Below, one piece after another: positions 8-10,290 of a stretch of DNA of 10,290 nucleotides. This DNA comes from Armatimonadota bacterium (GTDB lineage Bacteria; Armatimonadota; UBA5829): assembly GCA_023474015.1 (NCBI GenBank), contig JAMCYN010000107.1, forward strand, positions 1 through 10,290. Direction: 5' to 3'. The notes under the pieces were generated by a model. That model made no database searches. It was not told the DNA's origin and worked only from the letters and a program-made list of their open reading frames with translations. Position 1 is the stretch's first letter. Each line of letters starts with the position of its first letter. Position numbers and translations under genes: made by a program.

Positions 8-730
8 TCAACATAAGCCCGCCCTGCTCACCGCAGGGTAGCCGGCGAGATCCTTCAGATCGACCATCATCTCGGCGAACTTGAAAGCCGTATACATCGG
101 GTCTATAACCGGGGCGCCGATAACGTCCACCGGGTCAGCCTTGAAGTAGCTGGTGAACAGGGAAGAGAGGATAGTGCACCCGGATATGATCACCTCGGCC
201 CCGTCTTCCTTGATGCACTTTTTAGCCACCTCGACCAGCCGATTTGCCACCTCTTCCGTGGGGGTGATCTCTGGGTAAAGCTGGTTCGCCCTGATGCCGA
301 TGTGCCTTATCGAGGCCATGCTCTGCCGGACTCCGTAGAGATCGACAAGAAGCTTGTCAAACCTCTTTGCGACCAGTTCCTCGACGGTGACCACCGACCA
401 CCTCGCGCCCATGGTCGCGGCAAGGTGCGTCGCGGACTCGAAGCATCCCGTAACCGGTATGTCCACCACCGCGCGCATCTCGAACAGCCCCGGGTCGCTC
501 ACGCACGAGTTCACCACGGCGTCGTAACCCTGCTGCTCGGCAAGGATGGTTCGCTCGACGGTCGCGTTTATGCATTTGAGCATGTTGTAAGGAAAAGTGT
601 TATAAGGAAGCGGAAATACGTCCTTTACGCACTCGTAGTCGAACTCCGTCCCAGGCCGCGCCACCTTTTCCAGATTCTCTCGTCCGAAAGGCTCCGTGCT
701 GCCGAACGGGCAGATAACCAACAGTTTCAT
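8..730 (-). CDS. Asp/Glu/hydantoin racemase family protein
   Basis: A 240-residue protein of the cofactor-independent Asp/Glu/hydantoin racemase superfamily, at the usual length for hydantoin-racemase-like members. These enzymes use two cysteines on opposite faces of the substrate to move the alpha proton. Both are visible: Cys76 in NSCVSDPGL, matching the family's C-x-x-DPGL motif, and Cys185 in IISGCTILSS. No signal peptide or membrane segment is seen, so it should be cytosolic. The ATG at 730 is preceded by AAGGAG (complement of 737-742) with a 6-base spacer, which fixes the start; the stop is TGA. It is the last gene of the row, 29 bases after the PLP lyase gene. Family members also include maleate isomerase and arylmalonate decarboxylase, so the substrate is open. 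A hydantoin or amino-acid racemase would fit the hydantoinase B remnant further upstream in the row. Confidence 0.85.
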   Translation of the reverse strand: MKLLVICPFGSTEPFGRENLEKVARPGTEFDYECVKDVFPLPYNTFPYNMLKCINATVERTILAEQQGYDAVVNSCVSDPGLFEMRAVVDIPVTGCFESATHLAATMGARWSVVTVEELVAKRFDKLLVDLYGVRQSMASIRHIGIRANQLYPEITPTEEVANRLVEVAKKCIKEDGAEVIISGCTILSSLFTSYFKADPVDVIGAPVIDPMYTAFKFAEMMVDLKDLAGYPAVSRAGLC

Positions 731-759: not shown

Positions 760-1797
760 TTATGTTGAGCCGACCACTTCCCTGATGACCTTGAGCGCGA
801 TCTCGACGCCATCGTCGGTGATGTGACGATGGAAAGTGAACCGTGCAATCTGCTCGGTAAGGCGATGGCCCCTGACTCCGCGCTCCAAGAGGCGGGCAAG
901 GAACTCATCGGTGGTCAGTCCTGTTTGCGAGATGTCGGCCATGACGATGTTAGTCTGCACGCTCGCGAGGTCGACCGATATGCCGGGCATTTCGTTAAGC
1001 TCATTCGCGAACTGCTTAGCGCGCCTCTGGTCATCGCGGAGGCGGTCCACCATGGTCTCAAGCGCGACGATACCGGCGGCGGCGAGGATACCGGCCTTGT
1101 GGAAGCTCCAGGCTCCGAGCCGCTTCAGATTGACATAGGCCCGCTCGATGTCTTTCGTACTGCCGCAGAGCATGGCGCCAGCGGGCGCGCACAGCCCCTT
1201 GATGAGGCTAAACACGACTGCGTCCGCCGGAGCGACCAGTTCAGCGGGCGTCACATTGAAAGCGAACGCGGCATGCAGGATTCTGGCGCCGTCGATGAAG
1301 ACCGACGCCCCGTGCCGGTGAGCGACGTCGCAGAGCGCCTTTGTCTGCTCAAGCGATGTCACCGTCCCTCCCGCCATGTTGTGAGTGTTTTCCAGGCAGA
1401 CGAGGTCGGTCACAGGAATGTGGTTGAACCTGTTGTCGGTGATGGCCGCCTCGACATCCGCCGGGTCCATCACGCCTGCCCGGCCCTCCACCAGTCTGGG
1501 GTAAAGACCGCCGATATAGGAGATGCCCCACTCCTCCGACCAGGCGATATGAGAGTTCTTCTCGACGATCACCTGGTGGCCGCGCTCGGCAAACGTCATC
1601 AGCGCCACCAGATTGGCCATTCTCCCGGTCAGCACCAGCAGCGCCGCCTCCTTGCCCATCAGCCGGGCCGCCATCTCTTCCAGCCTGTTTACCGACGGGT
1701 CCTGCCGGTCGATGATCCAGTCGGGCTTCGCCGCCCGCATCGCATCCCACATCGCGTCGGTGGGTTCATTGATAATATCGCTCTTGAAATCGATCAT
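760..1797 (-). CDS. Threonine aldolase / beta-eliminating lyase family PLP enzyme
   Basis: A 345-residue fold-type I PLP enzyme of the low-specificity threonine aldolase family, which splits beta-hydroxy amino acids to glycine and an aldehyde. Its full length matches the family. Visible motifs in order are: SDIINEPT near residues 6-13 (family SDTVT.PT); G58-R-M-A-N-L; NSHI with His83, which stacks on PLP; ENTHN-AGG at 136-144; DGAR at 169-172, whose Asp binds the PLP nitrogen; SLIKGLCAPAG at 197-207 with the Schiff-base lysine at Lys200; and ARFTFHRHIT at 318-327, corresponding to the carboxylate-binding R-F-V-T-H region. The segment LGAWSFHKAGILAAAG (228-243) is divergent, since aldolases usually have GGG-x-RQ there, so the substrate may not be threonine. 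A start at 1797 is supported by AAGGA about 7 bases upstream. The stop is TAA. Cytosolic. Confidence 0.85.
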   Translation of the reverse strand: MIDFKSDIINEPTDAMWDAMRAAKPDWIIDRQDPSVNRLEEMAARLMGKEAALLVLTGRMANLVALMTFAERGHQVIVEKNSHIAWSEEWGISYIGGLYPRLVEGRAGVMDPADVEAAITDNRFNHIPVTDLVCLENTHNMAGGTVTSLEQTKALCDVAHRHGASVFIDGARILHAAFAFNVTPAELVAPADAVVFSLIKGLCAPAGAMLCGSTKDIERAYVNLKRLGAWSFHKAGILAAAGIVALETMVDRLRDDQRRAKQFANELNEMPGISVDLASVQTNIVMADISQTGLTTDEFLARLLERGVRGHRLTEQIARFTFHRHITDDGVEIALKVIREVVGST

Positions 1798-1995: not shown

Positions 1996-3438
1996 TTACG
2001 AGACCCCAGCCTTCTCTTCGACTCGATCCGAGATTGATTTCAGCTCGCGTTGAACGTCGGCGGGCAGCTTGCGGCACACGTGCTCGCTCAGTATTCGGTC
2101 GATCTTACGCCGGACCTTCTCTTTTGCGTCCGTCGATCCGGCGGCCTGCCAGCCCTGGTAGGTGTTGCGGTCGAAGATGCCCGGTTCCCACTGCTCGCGG
2201 TAACGCGCCAGCGTGTGGTCGCACGACAGGAAGTCGCCCTCGATTCCCAGCTCGTCTATCAGGTCCAGGGCCAATGTGTCGTCGTTCACCGGAGCGCCCT
2301 TCTTGAACTGCCTTATCCAGCTAATGATCTCGTCGCACAGTGCGAGCATTTCAGCCGAATAGGTGACCCCGGCCTCGATATAGCCCACATCGTGGATGAG
2401 ATTTGCCCCGACCAGCGAGTCCGCCATCAGGGTCAGGCTCGCTTCGGATACGGCTTGCCAGTCCGGCAGCTTGGAGTCGCCGCATCCGGCAGTTCCGAAG
2501 CACGGCAGGTTGTAGAAGTGCGCCATGTCCGAGGAGAATATACGATTCTCGGGCGCGGCAAATGTCGAGAGCATGGTCTTCATGTCCATCACCACGATCC
2601 TGCCACCGCGCACCACAAACGGCGTGCCCTCACGCACGAACTGCGCCAGCACCAGCGCCGCAAGCTGCCCCGCCGCACCCATGGCCTGGTAGCCAGCCGC
2701 CGTGATCGGGCTGCTGACGCCCATAATCGCCGAGACCAGATATAGGCAGGGAAGCCCTTTTTTCGCCGTGTAAAGAAGCTTCCGGACGGTGTCCTCGTTA
2801 TGCAGGAGAGCGCGCACAGGCTGGATGTAGTGGATGAAGAATGGCCGCTCTCTCAGGCTCTCCGCGTTTCCCGCCACATTCTCCGCCATCGCGATAATGT
2901 CTCGCGTGCCCTCATAGTGGAACGAGACGCCAATGATGGGCTTGGTCGAATGATTGAGCATAATCTCCATTTGCTTACGGTCCGCGCCGCCGCGCGGGAT
3001 ATCGGTTGGGATAATCATCGACATCAGGAAGTCGATGTTATCCAGGCCGTCGCAGAGAGTGACCAACTCCTCGAGGTCCTTGACCAGCGGGGCTCTGTGT
3101 TCACCCGTTCTGTGATCCAGGATATTGAGGCAGTCCGAACCCGGACCATACAGGCAGTTGCGCGCCCCGACTTCGTGCTTCGGGTTTCCCTCCTGGTCGT
3201 GGAGGGTGAATGTGTGCGGCACGGTCTTGAGCGCCCAATCGACCAGCGACTCGGGAATGTACACACGCTCGCCGTCAACCCTCGCGCCGCCGTTCTTGAA
3301 GATGGCGAGCGCCTCTTCGCTCTGGAAGACCACACCCGTCTTTTTGAGTATTTGGAGAGCCGCGGCGTGTATCCGCTCGCACTGGTCCTTGCTCAGCGTG
3401 CTGAGGACCATCTCTTTGAGTTCGGCATCTTGCTGCAT
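1996..3438 (-). CDS. MttB-family (trimethylamine methyltransferase-like) protein, non-pyrrolysine type
   Basis: A 480-residue protein of the MttB superfamily, whose members transfer a methyl group from a methylated amine to the cobalt of a cognate corrinoid protein. Recognisable regions are the N-terminal HAAALQILKKTGV (24-36), the glycine-rich GPGSDCLNILD (98-108), the barrel strands around GAAGQLAALVLAQ (254-266), and the C-terminal GTAGCGDSKLPDWQA (315-329) followed by GANLIHDVGYIEAG (344-357). Archaeal MttB needs an in-frame amber codon for pyrrolysine. This frame has no internal stop and ends in TAA, so it belongs with the non-pyrrolysine homologues, one of which (MtgB) is a glycine betaine methyltransferase. 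No corrinoid protein, reductive activase or corrinoid:tetrahydrofolate methyltransferase is in the window. The start at 3438 has only AAAGG about 11 bases upstream. It follows the chimeric gene by 18 bases. The substrate is unknown. Confidence 0.85.
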   Translation of the reverse strand: MQQDAELKEMVLSTLSKDQCERIHAAALQILKKTGVVFQSEEALAIFKNGGARVDGERVYIPESLVDWALKTVPHTFTLHDQEGNPKHEVGARNCLYGPGSDCLNILDHRTGEHRAPLVKDLEELVTLCDGLDNIDFLMSMIIPTDIPRGGADRKQMEIMLNHSTKPIIGVSFHYEGTRDIIAMAENVAGNAESLRERPFFIHYIQPVRALLHNEDTVRKLLYTAKKGLPCLYLVSAIMGVSSPITAAGYQAMGAAGQLAALVLAQFVREGTPFVVRGGRIVVMDMKTMLSTFAAPENRIFSSDMAHFYNLPCFGTAGCGDSKLPDWQAVSEASLTLMADSLVGANLIHDVGYIEAGVTYSAEMLALCDEIISWIRQFKKGAPVNDDTLALDLIDELGIEGDFLSCDHTLARYREQWEPGIFDRNTYQGWQAAGSTDAKEKVRRKIDRILSEHVCRKLPADVQRELKSISDRVEEKAGVS

Positions 3439-3456: not shown

Positions 3457-5430
3457 TTAGATTTGACCGCCTATCGGCGCCGCCGCCCCGGCGGCCCTGA
3501 GTCTTCGCGTTTCCTCGTTATTCACTTCAAGCGTCTTTGAATCGATGACTACTCCATAAACATCTCTCGCACGCTCTATGGAGACAAGCCCTTCGAGCAC
3601 ATCCCAGCGGACTTTCTCCGGCTCCCTCTCGAATGGACTGCCCCAGCCGCCTCCGCCGGGAGTAATGATTGTTACATTCTCACCCTGCTTGAGCTGGGTA
3701 GTGAACTTCGTGCACAGCGATTCGGACTCCTTGCCGTCGGCGTCGGCTAGAAGGCAGTGAGAAGGGGCGGCGTTCTTTCCCCCGAAAGCACCCCAGGGCG
3801 TGATCTCGTGACGGTCCGTGCTGACGCTCACCTTGGTATTCGGAGTGAGCGCAGTGACCGAGCGCATCAGCCCGACTCCTCCGCGTCGTCGGCCCGCTCC
3901 CTCCGAATCCGGGACCATCGAGTATTCCTTGACAAACAGCGGGTATGTCGCCTCTATGACCTCGACCGGAGTGTTGCGAGTATTGGTCATGTGCGTCTGG
4001 ACAGCGTCCATCCCGTCAAGCTCCGCCATGGCCCCCTGGCCGCCCGCGTAGGTCTCGACATAGCTGTACATATTGTCCGACTCGGGCATCTTGCCGCCTA
4101 CGTTCAGGATGGTGGTCACGCCATAGGACGCGGCCTGGGTCTTGTCCTTGAACGCGTCCAGCAGCGCCCCGAGCAGCACATCAACGACCTTGGGTGATGT
4201 GATAATCGTGGAGTTGCACACCGGCGCGGGGAACTTCGCCGCGACCACCGAGCCGTGTCTCACCTTGACCTCAAACGGCCTGTAGGCCCCGGCGTTCGGT
4301 GGGATATCGGGATCGATCAGGCACCGGAACACGTAGTAGACCCCGGCGTTGGCAGTGACTATCGTGGAGTTTATCGAGTCCGGCTGTTGGTCGTCACTTC
4401 CCGAGAAATCGACGAATACCGAATCTTCCTTTATCTCGATGGAAGCCGATATCTTGATGAGTTTCTTGGTAAGCGGCGTGCCTTCGATGAAGTCCTCGTG
4501 GTAGAACTTGCCCTTGGGCATGTTCCTGATTCCGGCGCGCATACGGGCTTCGGAGTAATCCATCAGCGCCCGCATATAGAACGCGATGGTCTCCTCATCG
4601 TAACGGCCTATAACCTCCCGCAGCCTTCGCGAGCCGACGTTGTTTGCGGCCACCTGCGCCATGATATCGCCCCGGCTCTCGAATGTGGTCCTGACATTCT
4701 GGTTGATGAAGCTCATGAGCTCTTCGTCGAGCAGGCCGTTTTGCATCCCAACATCATCCGCGAAAGCGATAACGTTCAGGTATGGACCACAAGCATCCAG
4801 AAATCGTTCATACCGTCTGATCTGTATCTCCGCCACCTTCTCAAGAAGGAGGCAGGCAAAGCGCGGCTGAGCTACCATGTCTTCCAGCAGCTTGCTGAAT
4901 CCTCTCATTGCAAGGGCCACTTCAAAGATGCTCGGCTTGTCCACACTACCGACCAGCGCTCGTGAACTCTGTGCATAGAGCCGCTCGGCATCCTCTCTCA
5001 ACCGCTCGGTGCGCCCCGGATCCTCGGGGTTAGGCCAGTCATATGCATCTATATCCGCAATAGTCGCATCAGCCAAGGGAGTTGACGTCGATGCGTACGA
5101 CTGTCCATCGGACTCTGAAACCTGATATTCGATGCCCCATTCATTCACATAACGTCCATCCGGATACTTGGTCTCTTTGCCGGCGTGCGGTGGTCGAGAG
5201 CGTATGGTCTGGGTGTCGACATGCAGCAGATCAAGTATATCCTCCTCAACAACAATCTTCTCTGAAGGGATTGACTCGATCACATCTTGTCCGACAATCC
5301 CTAAATACTGTTTCAGTCGCGAATAAGCCACGCCGCGGATAGTGGAGACGATAGTACCGCCGATATCAAGAGGTACTCTATCCGGCTCCTCGTGATTTAG
5401 AGTTCTGAGCACTCTCTCCCTGGAAGTCAT
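3457..5430 (-). CDS. Chimeric protein: truncated URO-D/MtaA-type domain fused to truncated hydantoinase B
   Basis: One uninterrupted frame of 657 codons joins parts of two unrelated families. Residues 1-234 match the URO-D/MtaA family from its canonical start (MTSRERVLRTLNHEEPDRVP) to the DDVGMQ motif at 225-230. Residues from about 240 to 657 match hydantoinase B/oxoprolinase: NVRTTFESRGDIMAQ (245-259), VAANNVGSRRL (260-270), DFSGSD (341-346), ETYAGGQGAM (459-468), RRRGGVGLM (514-522), PGGGGWGSP (591-599) and a final YGVV. A normal URO-D homologue continues for about 100-130 residues with its metal-binding H-x-C and later Cys; these are missing. A normal HyuB has about 160-180 more N-terminal residues carrying the NDP..GG.H..D metal site; these are missing too. 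Neither activity is expected. The ATG at 5430 is chosen over the GTG at 5451 and ATG at 5445 because GGAG lies 9 bases upstream and URO-D homologues start there. The stop is TAA. Confidence 0.85.
   Translation of the reverse strand: MTSRERVLRTLNHEEPDRVPLDIGGTIVSTIRGVAYSRLKQYLGIVGQDVIESIPSEKIVVEEDILDLLHVDTQTIRSRPPHAGKETKYPDGRYVNEWGIEYQVSESDGQSYASTSTPLADATIADIDAYDWPNPEDPGRTERLREDAERLYAQSSRALVGSVDKPSIFEVALAMRGFSKLLEDMVAQPRFACLLLEKVAEIQIRRYERFLDACGPYLNVIAFADDVGMQNGLLDEELMSFINQNVRTTFESRGDIMAQVAANNVGSRRLREVIGRYDEETIAFYMRALMDYSEARMRAGIRNMPKGKFYHEDFIEGTPLTKKLIKISASIEIKEDSVFVDFSGSDDQQPDSINSTIVTANAGVYYVFRCLIDPDIPPNAGAYRPFEVKVRHGSVVAAKFPAPVCNSTIITSPKVVDVLLGALLDAFKDKTQAASYGVTTILNVGGKMPESDNMYSYVETYAGGQGAMAELDGMDAVQTHMTNTRNTPVEVIEATYPLFVKEYSMVPDSEGAGRRRGGVGLMRSVTALTPNTKVSVSTDRHEITPWGAFGGKNAAPSHCLLADADGKESESLCTKFTTQLKQGENVTIITPGGGGWGSPFEREPEKVRWDVLEGLVSIERARDVYGVVIDSKTLEVNNEETRRLRAAGAAAPIGGQI
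4696..4731 (-). other. Junction between URO-D-like and hydantoinase B-like coding sequence
   Basis: On the rightward side the protein reads as a URO-D homologue up to GMQNGLL. On the leftward side it reads as HyuB from about NQNVRTTFESRGD. The intervening DEELMSFI could come from either parent, so the breakpoint is placed only to within this interval. No transposase, direct repeat or insertion remnant is visible at the join. Confidence 0.65.
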
Positions 5431-5439
5431 GTGCAGGCA

Positions 5440-5443
5440 CTCC
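5440..5443 (-). promoter_or_regulatory. Ribosome binding site deciding the start of the chimeric gene
   Basis: The complement reads GGAG, 9 bases before the ATG at 5430. The in-frame ATG at 5445 and GTG at 5451 lack a comparable purine-rich site, and homologues begin at MTSRERV. Confidence 0.6.
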
Positions 5444-5486
5444 ATTTCCACAACGTCGGTTCACTTACCGGTGGCACGCGATCTCG

Positions 5487-7010
5487 TTATATTGACTGCA
5501 ATTCCGAGAGCTTGTGATAAAGCTGTCGCATCAGTGGATATATAGCCTCGTAGGCATCGAGCTTCTTGCCATACTGTTCGGCCGTTGTAGCATCAGGACG
5601 ATACACTTCTCGCACTCCCACCAGCTTGCCTGAAATCTCGGGCGAATCGTATACCCCAGCTCCCACACCCGCGAGAATAGCCGCTCCCAGAGCCGGCGCT
5701 TCCGAGGTACACATCGCCATCAATGACCGATTCATAATATTGGACCTGATCTGGAGATCGACCGATGATTTAGCGCCGCCGCCGATTGCGTGCATCTCTT
5801 GAATGCAGGCTCCACCTCGCTCGATTAAGCGCAGATTCATGGCGAGTTCGTATGCGGTACCTTCAATAGCCGCCTTTATGATATCTGAGCGTTTTGTATT
5901 CAACTCAAGTCCGAGAATACTGCCCTTAACTGATGTGTCAAACCACGGAGTTCCCGTGCCGGAAAAATGCGGCAGGGTGAACAAATTGGTAGGATCGTTA
6001 GGCAAATCCGCAAGCATCAGATCGTATGCGTCCTTCCCGGCGGACTCCGACTGGCTAACTTCCGTCGGAGCAAAATTATCTCGGAGCCAACGCAGCAAAC
6101 ATCCTCCCGTAAGGTTGTATGCCATGGTCACGAATCGGTTTGGCACCACATGCGGATAGCACGGGAAACCAGCCGCGCCAAGTGATGGCTTGAAGTCGTC
6201 CAACACCGCGCAAATGACGTGCACGGTGCCCAGCGCATAAGTTGCCTGGCCATTGCGAACAACACCAGAGCCCACAGCTCCACAGGGCTGATCGTGCCCG
6301 CCGACTACAACGAGGGTGGACCGTGAAAGCCCCAGTTGGTCGGCAATCTCCGGGGATGGATGACCGACCGGAGTCCCGGACGGCGCGATTTCAGGCAGCA
6401 TTTCCGGATCGACTTCCGCTGATTCCAGCATGGTTTCGGACCAGCGCTTCTGATGAACATCGAACGCCATCGATCTGGCAGCCATCGAATAATCTATGAT
6501 CGGCGGCAGGCCCAAACGAGTTAACACGAATTCCCCATAACAGAGGAACTTATGCGTCTGTCTATAGACTTCGGGGCGGTTTTTCTTTAGCCAGCAGATC
6601 TTCGGCAGAGGATGGCTGTAATCGGGAGTCTGCCCGGTAAGCTCAAAGGTGCTATCCCGGCCCACCCGCTCAGTCAGTTCCTCTACTTCCACCCGGCCTC
6701 TGCTGTCAAATGATGTTAGGGAGTTGCACACCGGACGTCCGTGGCGATCAACCGGAGTGAAAGCCTCCCCCATAACGGATATGGAAAGAGCGTCTACAGG
6801 GTTTGACAGCGAAGAGGTAGCCTCCCGGATGGCGCTGGAAGCACTGTGCCAAAGCAACTCGGGGTCCAATTCAACCATGCCTGGTTCCGGGTGTAGCATG
6901 GGGTACTCACGGTAAGCTGATGCCAGAACATCTCCCTGCTCGTTAAACGCTACCGCCTTGCAGCCCGTATATCCTATATCCAGACCCATAAGCGTCTTAC
7001 TTGAACTCAT
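5487..7010 (-). CDS. FGGY-family carbohydrate kinase
   Basis: A 507-residue full-length FGGY kinase, the family that phosphorylates xylulose, gluconate, rhamnulose, glycerol and similar substrates with ATP. Two actin-like domains are recognisable. The N-terminal phosphate loop is GLDIGYTGCKAVAF (residues 9-22, Asp11). The catalytic base lies in VVGGHDQPCGAVG (235-247), with Asp240 as the likely general base. ALGTVHV (259-265) stands where SxGTS is usual. The C-terminal adenosine-binding region is AIGGGAKSSVDLQ (408-420), followed by EAPALGAAILAGVGAG (437-452). The phosphate loop has Tyr at position 14, where most members have Thr or Ser. The ATG at 7010 follows a G-run (GGGGGG) 5 bases upstream, and the stop is TAA. 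It starts 18 bases after the permease stop, so the two are almost surely co-transcribed. Xylulokinase or gluconokinase-like labels are both plausible; specificity cannot be read by eye. Confidence 0.9.
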   Translation of the reverse strand: MSSSKTLMGLDIGYTGCKAVAFNEQGDVLASAYREYPMLHPEPGMVELDPELLWHSASSAIREATSSLSNPVDALSISVMGEAFTPVDRHGRPVCNSLTSFDSRGRVEVEELTERVGRDSTFELTGQTPDYSHPLPKICWLKKNRPEVYRQTHKFLCYGEFVLTRLGLPPIIDYSMAARSMAFDVHQKRWSETMLESAEVDPEMLPEIAPSGTPVGHPSPEIADQLGLSRSTLVVVGGHDQPCGAVGSGVVRNGQATYALGTVHVICAVLDDFKPSLGAAGFPCYPHVVPNRFVTMAYNLTGGCLLRWLRDNFAPTEVSQSESAGKDAYDLMLADLPNDPTNLFTLPHFSGTGTPWFDTSVKGSILGLELNTKRSDIIKAAIEGTAYELAMNLRLIERGGACIQEMHAIGGGAKSSVDLQIRSNIMNRSLMAMCTSEAPALGAAILAGVGAGVYDSPEISGKLVGVREVYRPDATTAEQYGKKLDAYEAIYPLMRQLYHKLSELQSI

Positions 7011-7028
7011 TGTTACCCCCCAGACAAT

Positions 7029-8075
7029 CTAATGTGTAAGCGAATTGCCATATCCAAGGACTATAACAGCCAAAGCCAAAACCACCAGCCCGGCGTACAT
7101 GGTCCGTATCGGCTTGCCCTTACCCGTGCGCCATTCCCCCGCAATCACTCCCCATATACCTGCAACAGCTATGGACCCGCCGTTGAATATCGCCCAACCC
7201 GCGGAAGGTCCGAGAGTCCCCATAATGGCGGCCGCCCTGCCGTATGTTGCCACGCCGCCGAGCCAGAGAATGCCCATAAGTCCGGCGAAAAACCAATGGT
7301 CAAGCCCCGCCCTGCTGGTACGGTACACGGACCAAGTCTTTCGCTTGTTCAGGATTGCAGCCAAGAAGATGAAATTGCCCAAGAACCCGCCAAGGCAGGC
7401 AATCGTCCAACTGGCATCACTTGCCGCAACAGATGATGCTCCGTTTGCGATTGCCGATTTCATTATCGGCGCGCCGAATACAAATGCGAAATTGAGCATG
7501 GGAAGCAAGATGGCGCCGGATACAATGCAATAGATAAGTCCCTTTGCATATGAGCCTTCGGGCTTGACCATCTCAGACGCGCCACTCCTCTGCTCGGCAG
7601 CTCTTTCTTGTGTCTCTTTTGAGATGCCGGCTCGCCCGGATATTGCCACTCCGACAAGAGTGAGCAGAACCCCCGCTGTCACAGTCAAACCGCTGGGCGT
7701 AAGGAACACCTCCGGTTTCATAACAAGCGGCACAAGTGCGCCAACGCCGGTAAGAAGTCCGATGGTTATCGCAAACCCAAGCCCCACGCCTATTATGGAA
7801 GACCCACGGCCGAAGAGATTACTGCCAAACCCCCAACCAAGGCCAAACAAGAACACCATTAAGAGAACACCGCCCCCCGAATCCCGCAGCGCACCCAGCA
7901 AATTCGGCACGGTTATGAACGCGACAGTGCACGGGGCTATTATCAAACCGACAAGGCTATAGACAAGCCACGTGTTTTCCCACTCCCACTTGGGGGTCTT
8001 CTTCATGGGTATCATGAAGCTACCGACCAGGATGGCGCTGAGAACCGCCACAATTACCCCGACTAAAGGATTCAT
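7029..8075 (-). CDS. RhaT-type (L-rhamnose/proton symporter family) sugar permease
   Basis: A 348-residue inner-membrane protein with about ten hydrophobic segments, near residues 3-22, 35-57, 68-87, 91-118, 129-147, 176-197, 220-242, 258-278, 290-313 and 327-343. A longer charged loop at 148-175 separates the two halves. It resembles Escherichia coli RhaT along its length: KKTPKWEWENTW (25-36; KKVKKWSWETMW in RhaT), VFLFGLGWGFG (74-84; VFLFGAMWGIG in RhaT), and SGRAG before the central loop. RhaT is a proton symporter of the drug/metabolite transporter superfamily. The frame stays open to an ATG at 8123, but the ATG at 8075 has GGAGG 8 bases upstream and begins right before the first helix, so it is preferred. 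The stop is TAG. With the kinase directly behind it, the role is uptake of a sugar then phosphorylated; rhamnose itself is not proven, as no rhamnose isomerase or aldolase is seen. Confidence 0.85.
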   Translation of the reverse strand: MNPLVGVIVAVLSAILVGSFMIPMKKTPKWEWENTWLVYSLVGLIIAPCTVAFITVPNLLGALRDSGGGVLLMVFLFGLGWGFGSNLFGRGSSIIGVGLGFAITIGLLTGVGALVPLVMKPEVFLTPSGLTVTAGVLLTLVGVAISGRAGISKETQERAAEQRSGASEMVKPEGSYAKGLIYCIVSGAILLPMLNFAFVFGAPIMKSAIANGASSVAASDASWTIACLGGFLGNFIFLAAILNKRKTWSVYRTSRAGLDHWFFAGLMGILWLGGVATYGRAAAIMGTLGPSAGWAIFNGGSIAVAGIWGVIAGEWRTGKGKPIRTMYAGLVVLALAVIVLGYGNSLTH

Positions 8076-8083
8076 GATTCTAT

Positions 8084-8088
8084 CCTCC
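8084..8088 (-). promoter_or_regulatory. Strong Shine-Dalgarno site of the RhaT-type permease gene
   Basis: The complement reads GGAGG, 8 bases before the ATG at 8075. The alternative ATG at 8090 sits immediately upstream of this site and cannot use it, and the one at 8123 would add a charged leader before the first helix. Confidence 0.75.
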
Positions 8089-8148
8089 ATCCTAACTCGA
8101 CTATGAATCCGCACATGATGCAAGCAATGTCGCGTGTGAGGTTATGGG

Positions 8149-8173
8149 ATACTCGCATAGCTCCTCGCAGTAT
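8149..8173. promoter_or_regulatory. Inverted repeat upstream of the permease gene, possible operator
   Basis: On the plus strand ATACTCG (8149-8155) pairs with CGCAGTAT (8166-8173), giving a 7-base stem with a one-base bulge around a 10-base centre that contains AGCT. It lies about 75 bases upstream of the permease ATG, in the only gap where a promoter for the permease-kinase-chimera genes could sit. Operator function is a guess; a fortuitous hairpin is equally possible. Confidence 0.3.
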
Positions 8174-8183
8174 TGCTGGTGGC

Positions 8184-8203
8184 CTTGTAAGATTACTTAC
8201 AAG
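8184..8203. repeat. Perfect 7-base inverted repeat over the hydrolase stop codon
   Basis: CTTGTAA (8184-8190) and TTACAAG (8197-8203) are perfect inverted copies with a 6-base loop, extendable by two G-C pairs past a bulge. The hydrolase TAA (8197-8199) is inside one arm. No T-run follows on the minus strand, so it is not a classical intrinsic terminator. It could limit read-through or protect the mRNA end. Confidence 0.4.
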
Positions 8204-10290
8204 CCGTCCTCGATTCCGACAAGCCGTCCGGCAAAAAGCATGGCCGCCGGGTTGCAGTGGAGCCTGCCTGCCAGGTTCAGTAGGGAGATTATCAGGCTGC
8301 CCCTGCCGTATTTCTTCTGGGCCACGGCCATGGTCGGATGCCAGCCACCGGTCCAACCTCCGTTTCCGCTGACGAGAACGGCATCCCAGCCCGGAGCATC
8401 GAAAGTCGTGGACAGGAACGGAGTCACATAACCCACAGCCGGATCGTGCCAGAACCTGAAGTCATTCGGTTCGAACCCTTTCACAAGGCGGTGTCCGGTA
8501 TATCGAGACACGAAGTGACGAGGACCCATCCCGCAGGGAACGATCGATATTGTGTCGCCGCCGATGTCGTAATCCCCGACGGGCAACTCCACAAATACGG
8601 CCGTCGCACCGCTCGCGACCGCACGCATAATCGACTTTCGATTCTTCTTGAACCTAGCGGGATCATCTATCAAGATCACCTCATCGGCTGCGGCCAAACC
8701 CGAGTATCTGGTGTCGAGACCGAGACCCACGGCCAATCTGGAAGCACTTCCCGTCACGTCGCCTACTATCTGGGCGCGTCGTCCGCGTTTTTCGCTGGGA
8801 CGAGGAAATATGTCGAGGTCCACCGATGTGTCATGCAAGACCCTGCCAGTGGAATCGACAAGCCCGAGACGCGCGACTGCCCGTGAGCGCTCCAACACTG
8901 TCGGAGTTCTGTAACGGATGAACCCCTGGAACGCGCTGTCGCAAGAAGAAATGTTCGCCTTTACGCGTCGGGCAAACAACACTTCTCCGTTCATCTCAAG
9001 CTGATAGTGTAGATACGCATCAGCCGGTGTGTCGATCAGGTCATTGCATATCCAGGCTTCCAGGTCTGTAGTCTCGCCCGAGAAGAACGAGTACCTGTCC
9101 GTGCGAAGATTGACAGCAAGCGGCGTGAGCGCATCTCGATACGCAAAGTATGCCGGTTTGGGTCGGCGCTCAACATCCATGATCGCCTTCATCCACCCGG
9201 ATGGGAAGGCATCTATGAACAAATGTATGGCAAAACTGTTCATCCGGCTGTCGCGCCGGAATGCCTCGGTGAGAAGCCGTGCGATCCAGGCCTGGTGGGC
9301 CTGGCTGGCCCTCACCCACTCCTTAAGGCTACGCTGAGTGTCGAACCACATATAGTGAAATCGCCCTGTTTGAGCCCGCACTATGCGGTCTGGAGACCAT
9401 TGCTTTTCCTCTTCCCGCGTTTGAGGCAGCCAGGAAGAGGGATAGTACTTTCTCATGACTTCGACCGGGTCCAATCCTTCGGACCCAAACTCACCGCAGC
9501 CGTAGTGCCAGCCGGGCTTGATTCTCTGCCAATAGCCAGCGTGGAGCCTGCCGAGGTCCAACCCATGACCGTTATACCATCCGCAGTAGCAGTGGTTGTC
9601 CGGCAGCCCGGGACCAGGGGGATCATAGTCGCCGTCCGCGGGCTTTATCACGCGGTCGGGATTGGCGAGTCGCACCGCCTCGGACGCGGCGGTGAAAAAT
9701 CTCTCCAGCTCCGGGCGAGTAAGGTGACGGTGGGGTTTGCCCCACCCGTTCGGAAACGGCTCGTTGATGTATGTCACCAGGATATTGCATGGGTGCGGCC
9801 TCACCAACCGTTCCATCTCTTCAGACTGCTTCACGGCCTCCGAGAACTGGTTTCGTCTGAGCACGGCAAATAACGGCAGATCGGTTTGAGTCATCAGGCC
9901 AAGACGGTCGCAGTAATCGTAAACCTCGGGCTGAACAGGCCGCTGCGTCAGACGCCAGAAGTTCAAGTTGCATATCTTAGCAAGCAGAATATCGTCGATC
10001 AGACGGTTCCAGTCCTTCTTTATGACGCACTGCTGCTCGAATCCCATCGTGTTGGCGCCGCGAAGGCGAATCTGCCGCCCGTTCAAATAGAAGCGTCCCT
10101 TGGGCTCCGACTGTTCATCCATATCGAACGACCGCATCCCGAACTGGCGGGTCCCGGCGTCGAGAACGCCCCCATCCTTATCCACCAACCTGGCCTGCAA
10201 CTGATAAAGCCAGGGCTCGTTAATATCCCAAAGCCGGTGGCCGGGCATATCGAACGGCAGCCTCAGGTAGTTTACTCCGGGGCCCGTCTG
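8197..10290 (-). CDS. Glycoside hydrolase, GH2-type, 5' end beyond the window
   Basis: The frame is open to the right edge, so the N-terminus is missing; 697 residues are visible and 14 precede the first in-window ATG. The visible part starts at the end of a GH2 sugar-binding/Ig-like region (DINEPWLYQLQARLVD) and enters the TIM barrel at YLNGRQIRLRGANTMGF (visible ~68-84). INEPF near 175-179 fits the GH2 acid/base Asn-Glu pair (Glu ~177). YGCGEFGSEGL near 263-273 fits the nucleophile strand (Glu ~267). The barrel ends near PKPAYFAYRDAL. A beta-sandwich follows (~395-490), then a ~190-residue alpha/beta region around ADEVILIDDP that recalls glutamine-amidotransferase-like domains without an obvious catalytic cysteine. 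GH2 covers beta-galactosidase, beta-mannosidase, beta-glucuronidase and others; the specificity is undetermined. Any signal peptide would be outside the window. The stop is TAA; the permease gene follows after 121 bases. Confidence 0.8.
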   Translation of the reverse strand, partial: QTGPGVNYLRLPFDMPGHRLWDINEPWLYQLQARLVDKDGGVLDAGTRQFGMRSFDMDEQSEPKGRFYLNGRQIRLRGANTMGFEQQCVIKKDWNRLIDDILLAKICNLNFWRLTQRPVQPEVYDYCDRLGLMTQTDLPLFAVLRRNQFSEAVKQSEEMERLVRPHPCNILVTYINEPFPNGWGKPHRHLTRPELERFFTAASEAVRLANPDRVIKPADGDYDPPGPGLPDNHCYCGWYNGHGLDLGRLHAGYWQRIKPGWHYGCGEFGSEGLDPVEVMRKYYPSSWLPQTREEEKQWSPDRIVRAQTGRFHYMWFDTQRSLKEWVRASQAHQAWIARLLTEAFRRDSRMNSFAIHLFIDAFPSGWMKAIMDVERRPKPAYFAYRDALTPLAVNLRTDRYSFFSGETTDLEAWICNDLIDTPADAYLHYQLEMNGEVLFARRVKANISSCDSAFQGFIRYRTPTVLERSRAVARLGLVDSTGRVLHDTSVDLDIFPRPSEKRGRRAQIVGDVTGSASRLAVGLGLDTRYSGLAAADEVILIDDPARFKKNRKSIMRAVASGATAVFVELPVGDYDIGGDTISIVPCGMGPRHFVSRYTGHRLVKGFEPNDFRFWHDPAVGYVTPFLSTTFDAPGWDAVLVSGNGGWTGGWHPTMAVAQKKYGRGSLIISLLNLAGRLHCNPAAMLFAGRLVGIEDGL
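8199..8229. repeat. Short direct repeat at the 3' end of the hydrolase gene
   Basis: The 11-base word ACAAGCCGTCC occurs at 8199-8209 and again at 8219-8229, 20 bases apart. The spacing is not a multiple of three, so the two copies are read in different frames in the last codons of the hydrolase. It may be a small duplication; chance is possible. Confidence 0.5.

Follow-up and report, generated by a model that had tools for sequence, protein, structure and literature searches.

Members of the URO-D/MtaA family (PF01208) keep a C-terminal region of about 150 residues that carries a His-x-Cys motif. Members of the hydantoinase B (HyuB)/CapB family (PF02538) have an Asp-His-Asp-His site within their first ~160 residues. 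The caprolactamase CapB binds metal through Asp41, His99, Asp102 and His124, and activity was lost in mutants of these four, according to PMC8453981, which also names the DxGGTxTD motif of HyuA-like proteins. In the stretch of 10,290 nucleotides analysed here (the window), we found one open reading frame that combines the front of a URO-D/MtaA-type protein with the back of a HyuB. In contrast to the members of the two families, it has neither the last ~150 residues with His-x-Cys nor the Asp-His-Asp-His site, and no hyuA gene adjoins it.

Two half-proteins in one reading frame

The fused frame (3457..5430, reverse strand) encodes 657 amino acids from its ATG and is stop-free in the ORF translation of the window. 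With an alternative GTG start the same open frame covers 3457..5451 on the reverse strand, again without a stop, and its real presence in the sequence record was confirmed. Residues 1 to ~230 represent the front of a URO-D/MtaA-type protein (57–59% identity to four intact proteins of 385–392 amino acids), while residues ~235–657 represent the back of a HyuB (68% identity to P0002, an intact HyuB of 579 amino acids).

The front part (residues 1–229; 4744..5430, reverse strand) is cut before the His-x-Cys motif and shares 58% identity over 99% of its length with the intact proteins P0121–P0124. All 120 listed relatives (best 120 of 716) carry PF01208, the best one being 58% identical across 99% of the query. 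Analysed alone, the front half scored 21.8 bits against PF01208, under the curated cut-off of 23.9; despite this score we assigned it to URO-D because its relatives carry the domain. Residues 1–234 align with eleven intact or near-intact PF01208 members at 49–59% identity (alignment A1), and the match runs up to D-D-V-G-M-Q-N-G-L-L, where the relatives continue with I/L-S-P. At columns 276 and 278 of A1 these relatives carry a near-invariant His-x-Cys motif, which the fused frame lacks. The motif of P0124 lines up with H-I-C of the Methanosarcina mazei methyltransferase 4ay7; its role is that of a metal site. Structure modelling of the front half yielded a partial barrel with modest confidence (mean pLDDT 70.6). 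URO-D and 4ay7 were the best fold matches of this model, both weak (best E 4.5e-3, TM 0.36); the fold search yielded no match at E ≤ 0.001, and a sequence search of the PDB with the front half yielded no chain at E ≤ 1.

The back part (~420 residues; 3457..4728, reverse strand) is a hydantoinase B/CapB-type subunit without its first ~160 residues. PF02538 matches residues 237–606 of the GTG-started form (profile positions 154–519 of 519, E 5.6e-116) with 388.5 bits against a curated cut-off of 26.8. The first aligned residue, D235 of the fused frame, faces CapB 162. The four CapB ligands align with Asp42, His103, Asp106 and His128 of P0002 (counted by hand from the alignment; structure chain 6YRA), and all four are missing from the fused frame, where homology starts at CapB 162. 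A profile scan of the seven window proteins identified no HyuA partner. Judged from these alignments, we do not expect either half to function like the members of its family.

The junction zone comprises the codons Q-N-G-L-L (Q230–L234; 4729..4743, reverse strand), bounded by where the URO-D and HyuB alignments end and begin. Here Q-x-G-(L/P)-L-(I/L)-S-P predominates in the closest URO-D relatives, and K/R-G-x-x-D and G-x-x-(D/N) in the HyuB relatives. The stretch shared at the join is therefore at most five codons or ~15 nucleotides long, which is an upper bound. The frame is kept across the join, for which the chance expectation is about one in three. Viral contigs yielded no hit to the exact junction pattern, and the window had no close match among plasmids; both are weak tests.

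These results bear out the sequence-only reading on three points. It had described a URO-D/MtaA-type front and a hydantoinase B back in one frame, as the ORF, the PF02538 match and the PF01208-bearing relatives now support; it had placed the join close to where we find it; and it had stated that the URO-D C-terminal His/Cys and the HyuB N-terminal metal site are absent, in agreement with A1 and the CapB alignment.

Relatives and gene neighbourhoods

A full-length search returned 2,158 proteins, and the only full match among the best 120 listed was this contig itself. The 119 non-self matches listed (best 119 of 2,158) carry PF02538 and cover 59–64% of the query, which is the size of the HyuB part; none of the 119 showed the URO-D/HyuB fusion in an independent genome. 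A more distant fusion could sit below the matches listed, though both halves would add to the score of a true fusion relative. Among plasmid records with a match, none of 904 covered 80% of the fused frame. Of 301 Chloroflexi-phylum genomes 152 had a match, and each match listed was confined to one half, either residues 1–235 or from 227 on. Within the literature library searched, no paper mentions uroporphyrinogen decarboxylase, hydantoinase and a fusion protein together.

All window genes lie on the reverse strand. Upstream of the fused frame, in what we call the right-hand block, are an FGGY carbohydrate kinase (5487..7010; PF00370/PF02782), a RhaT-like sugar/proton symporter (7029..8072; PF06379, with NF010022 below its cut-off) and a glycoside hydrolase family 2-like gene that is open at the window edge (8197..10290; PF02836, PF00703). 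The left-hand block downstream encodes an MttB-superfamily methyltransferase (1996..3438; PF06253, up to 76% identity to database proteins), a PLP-dependent aldolase of the GntG/threonine aldolase type (760..1797; PF01212, with NF041359 above its cut-off) and an Asp/Glu/hydantoin racemase family protein (8..730; PF01177). The MttB-type gene is a plain 480-codon frame without in-frame TAG, and its product scored 368 bits against the trimeth_pyl model, below the cut-off of 525; it looks like a non-pyrrolysine member.

Intact homologues of the two halves were found in separate clusters. In a groundwater Chloroflexi genome (G001; locus L001, 20.7 kb) an FGGY kinase (63% identity to that of the window) is directly followed by an intact URO-D of 389 amino acids (58%). 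This locus contains no homologue of HyuB or of the other left-block genes, nor of RhaT or GH2. One profile search of genome contigs with the URO-D alignment returned a single locus. A URO-D match at E ≤ 1e-42 was found in 3 of 400 genomes of the Chloroflexi phylum, G001 included; the short loci of the other two lack an FGGY kinase, which leaves the kinase–URO-D pair known from a single genome. In another genome of the Chloroflexi phylum (locus L034) a HyuA-like frame, recognised by the DxGGTxTD motif only, precedes an intact HyuB (50%), and hyuB is directly followed by two pieces of a racemase homologue (52% and 48%). At L034 4284–4723 these pieces match in two different frames with the middle missing, and the racemase gene may be broken there. 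In L002 and L003 (G001, C529 13449–14739) the HyuB homologue likewise appears as two overlapping pieces, one with an internal TAG, likely as a result of a frameshift or a broken gene.

We then compared the contig sizes of the matches listed for HyuB, URO-D and MttB (119 of 119, 119 of 120 and 118 of 119 entries, respectively); the two entries outside this comparison (4836, a repeat, and 2237) had no counterpart in the other lists by eye. HyuB and MttB had five equal-sized contigs in common (3604, 5297, 7834, 14762 and 26994), versus 0 to 2 in offset controls, and the 26994 contig is labelled Thermodesulfobacteriota in both lists. The short ones may be chance, 26994 and 14762 being the strong ones. 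URO-D and MttB shared one equal-sized contig (3037), and HyuB and URO-D shared none among the matches listed. Equal contig sizes, the sole basis here, suggest without proof that hyuB and mttB occur together on other contigs. Within the Chloroflexi phylum, we examined 11 stretches around MttB, which came from 10 genomes and contained 16 of the 28 listed matches. No HyuB or HyuA homologue was detected in them at E ≤ 1e-10, which argues against a general hyuB–mttB link in this phylum. As for the role of a cluster of hyuAB with MttB-type methyltransferase, aldolase and racemase, our guess is that it could demethylate an N-methylated cyclic amide and open its ring.

Among the matches listed, the nearest taxon-labelled relative of the URO-D part is from Chloroflexi (58%) and that of MttB from Thermodesulfobacteriota (72%); the best MttB identity in 400 genomes of the Chloroflexi phylum was 47%. 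The taxon-labelled HyuB relatives listed belong to Thermodesulfobacteriota (53%), Acidobacteriota (52%) and Chloroflexi (51%), and by sequence they do not single out one phylum. The kinase was compared with fetched loci only and is left out of the taxon evidence. Neither parent of the join was found at high identity.

Base composition across the junction

GC at third codon positions (GC3) is 0.545–0.688 in the URO-D part, kinase, RhaT and GH2, and 0.751–0.795 in the HyuB part, MttB, aldolase and racemase. The strongest change point of the window (3,126 codons, seven ORFs) is at 4740, with a 2-unit support interval of 4683–4785 and a log-likelihood gain of 47.9 (versus a maximum of 8.6 in 2,000 permutations). 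Synonymous codon usage is best split at 4749. For comparison we analysed 80 equally long control windows, taken as slightly overlapping pairs from 40 stretches of 16 Chloroflexi-phylum genomes, with automatic gene calling; the same pipeline gave a gain of 49.3 at 4743 for the window itself. A step at least as large occurred in 7 of the 80 controls (6 of 63 with similar mean GC3), five of them from one genome and two from another, that is, in 2 of 16 genomes. In three of the seven the change sits inside an ORF, by 143, 224 and 434 codons. We therefore rejected the size of the GC3 step as proof of a join; what counts is that the step coincides with the protein junction.

Tetranucleotide usage of the two halves correlated at 0.22, a value as low in 3 of 80 same-contig controls and in 23% of 320 different-genome pairs. 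Their tetranucleotide frequencies were as far apart as in 11 of 80 same-contig controls and 86% of 320 different-genome pairs. The left block is even in GC3 (gain 1.3). In the right block GC3 shifts less strongly at 7871, within RhaT (gain 12.5), and the block's own halves (window 4735–10290) correlate at −0.17 in tetranucleotides, below all 120 controls. A second join within the right block is possible.

Origin of the join

Taken together, two unrelated loci were probably joined by a chimeric molecule or a misassembly. The two half-proteins, their intact homologues in clusters elsewhere, the shift in composition at the junction, the missing catalytic sites of both families and the absence of a relative among the matches listed are observations; that the join was made outside the cell we infer from them. 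A right block of GH2-like, RhaT-like, FGGY kinase and URO-D genes would have been cut inside URO-D, and a left block of hyuB, MttB-type methyltransferase, aldolase and racemase genes, with hyuA expected upstream, inside hyuB. The ends would have met at a short stretch coding for Gly-Leu-Leu or similar, common to both families, and since both carry such a stretch the frame would have stayed open. Most likely this would have happened during library preparation or assembly, when a chimeric molecule or read was accepted where coverage was thin. Usual assembler k-mers are longer than ~15 nucleotides, so a shared stretch this short would need a chimeric read and not a plain misjoin in the assembly graph. 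In that case no cell would make a protein from the fused frame. Several observations count against a chimera of two blocks: large steps occur in the controls, 11 of 80 same-contig controls differ as much in tetranucleotide frequency, the right block is uneven, the kinase–URO-D pair is known from one genome, without RhaT or GH2 relatives beside it, and HyuB gives no phylum signal. The overlap limit of ~15 nucleotides, the kept frame and the lack of a high-identity parent point in the same direction.

A genuine recent rearrangement in one genome, leaving a dead fused gene, is the next candidate but less likely. It could have arisen by illegitimate recombination at short homology, by deletion between distant loci or at the border of a transferred island. 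The open frame and the short, possibly common stretch would suit end joining at microhomology, and the controls demonstrate that sharp GC3 steps occur in real contigs, inside ORFs too. However, the fusion is a single occurrence among the matches listed, the nearest labelled taxa differ for URO-D and MttB, and the fused frame has no stops or frameshifts, so that such an event would have to be recent. We favour a join in the library or assembly over a recent rearrangement in view of the single sighting of the fusion, its undecayed frame, the shift in composition on the junction and the different taxa of the nearest labelled relatives.

Of the three origins offered by the sequence-only reading, namely an in-frame deletion, a misjoined contig and a new scaffold, the misjoin fits best and the other two are improbable. 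An in-frame deletion inside one ancestral operon of URO-D, hyuA, hyuB and mttB is very unlikely. The genes share one strand with tight spacing on both sides of the frame, and a HyuA-like gene does precede hyuB in L034; yet the order URO-D, hyuA, hyuB was seen in no locus examined, the best URO-D relative with known surroundings, that of L001, follows an FGGY kinase and has no HyuB homologue within the 20.7 kb read, and URO-D and HyuB share no equal-sized contig among the matches listed. Moreover, a composition change at the join is unexpected for a deletion inside one operon. The kept spacing of neighbouring genes, which had been read as the mark of a single clean event, does not discriminate, since any manner of joining two intact cluster ends would preserve it as well.

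That the frame encodes a functional new protein, with the partial TIM barrel as a scaffold or docking part for the HyuB core, is highly improbable: it is open over 657 codons, but the missing part holds all four ligands essential in CapB (PMC8453981), the barrel is without its C-terminal portion, GC3 shows no blending at the junction, and no relative of the same architecture was seen among the matches listed, in plasmids or in the Chloroflexi phylum. We give equally little credence to a very recent, expressed fusion in which half a TIM barrel, related to corrinoid-type methyltransferases, would replace the metal-binding front of HyuB, so that the product would serve a methyltransferase cluster as a scaffold or partner without catalytic activity.

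The join by a chimeric molecule or misassembly, if left unflagged, would let the frame pass for a fusion protein in databases, and from the contig a sugar cluster would wrongly appear to be linked with a hydantoinase/methyltransferase cluster. A change-point scan of third-position GC can place a suspected join within a few codons, the step alone being no proof, as the controls demonstrate. In chimeric contigs of metagenome assemblies, two composition regimes likewise meet inside a gene and the arrangement is seen on one contig only; the composition of this window changes at the join in the same way, though 7 of 80 controls contain equally large steps.
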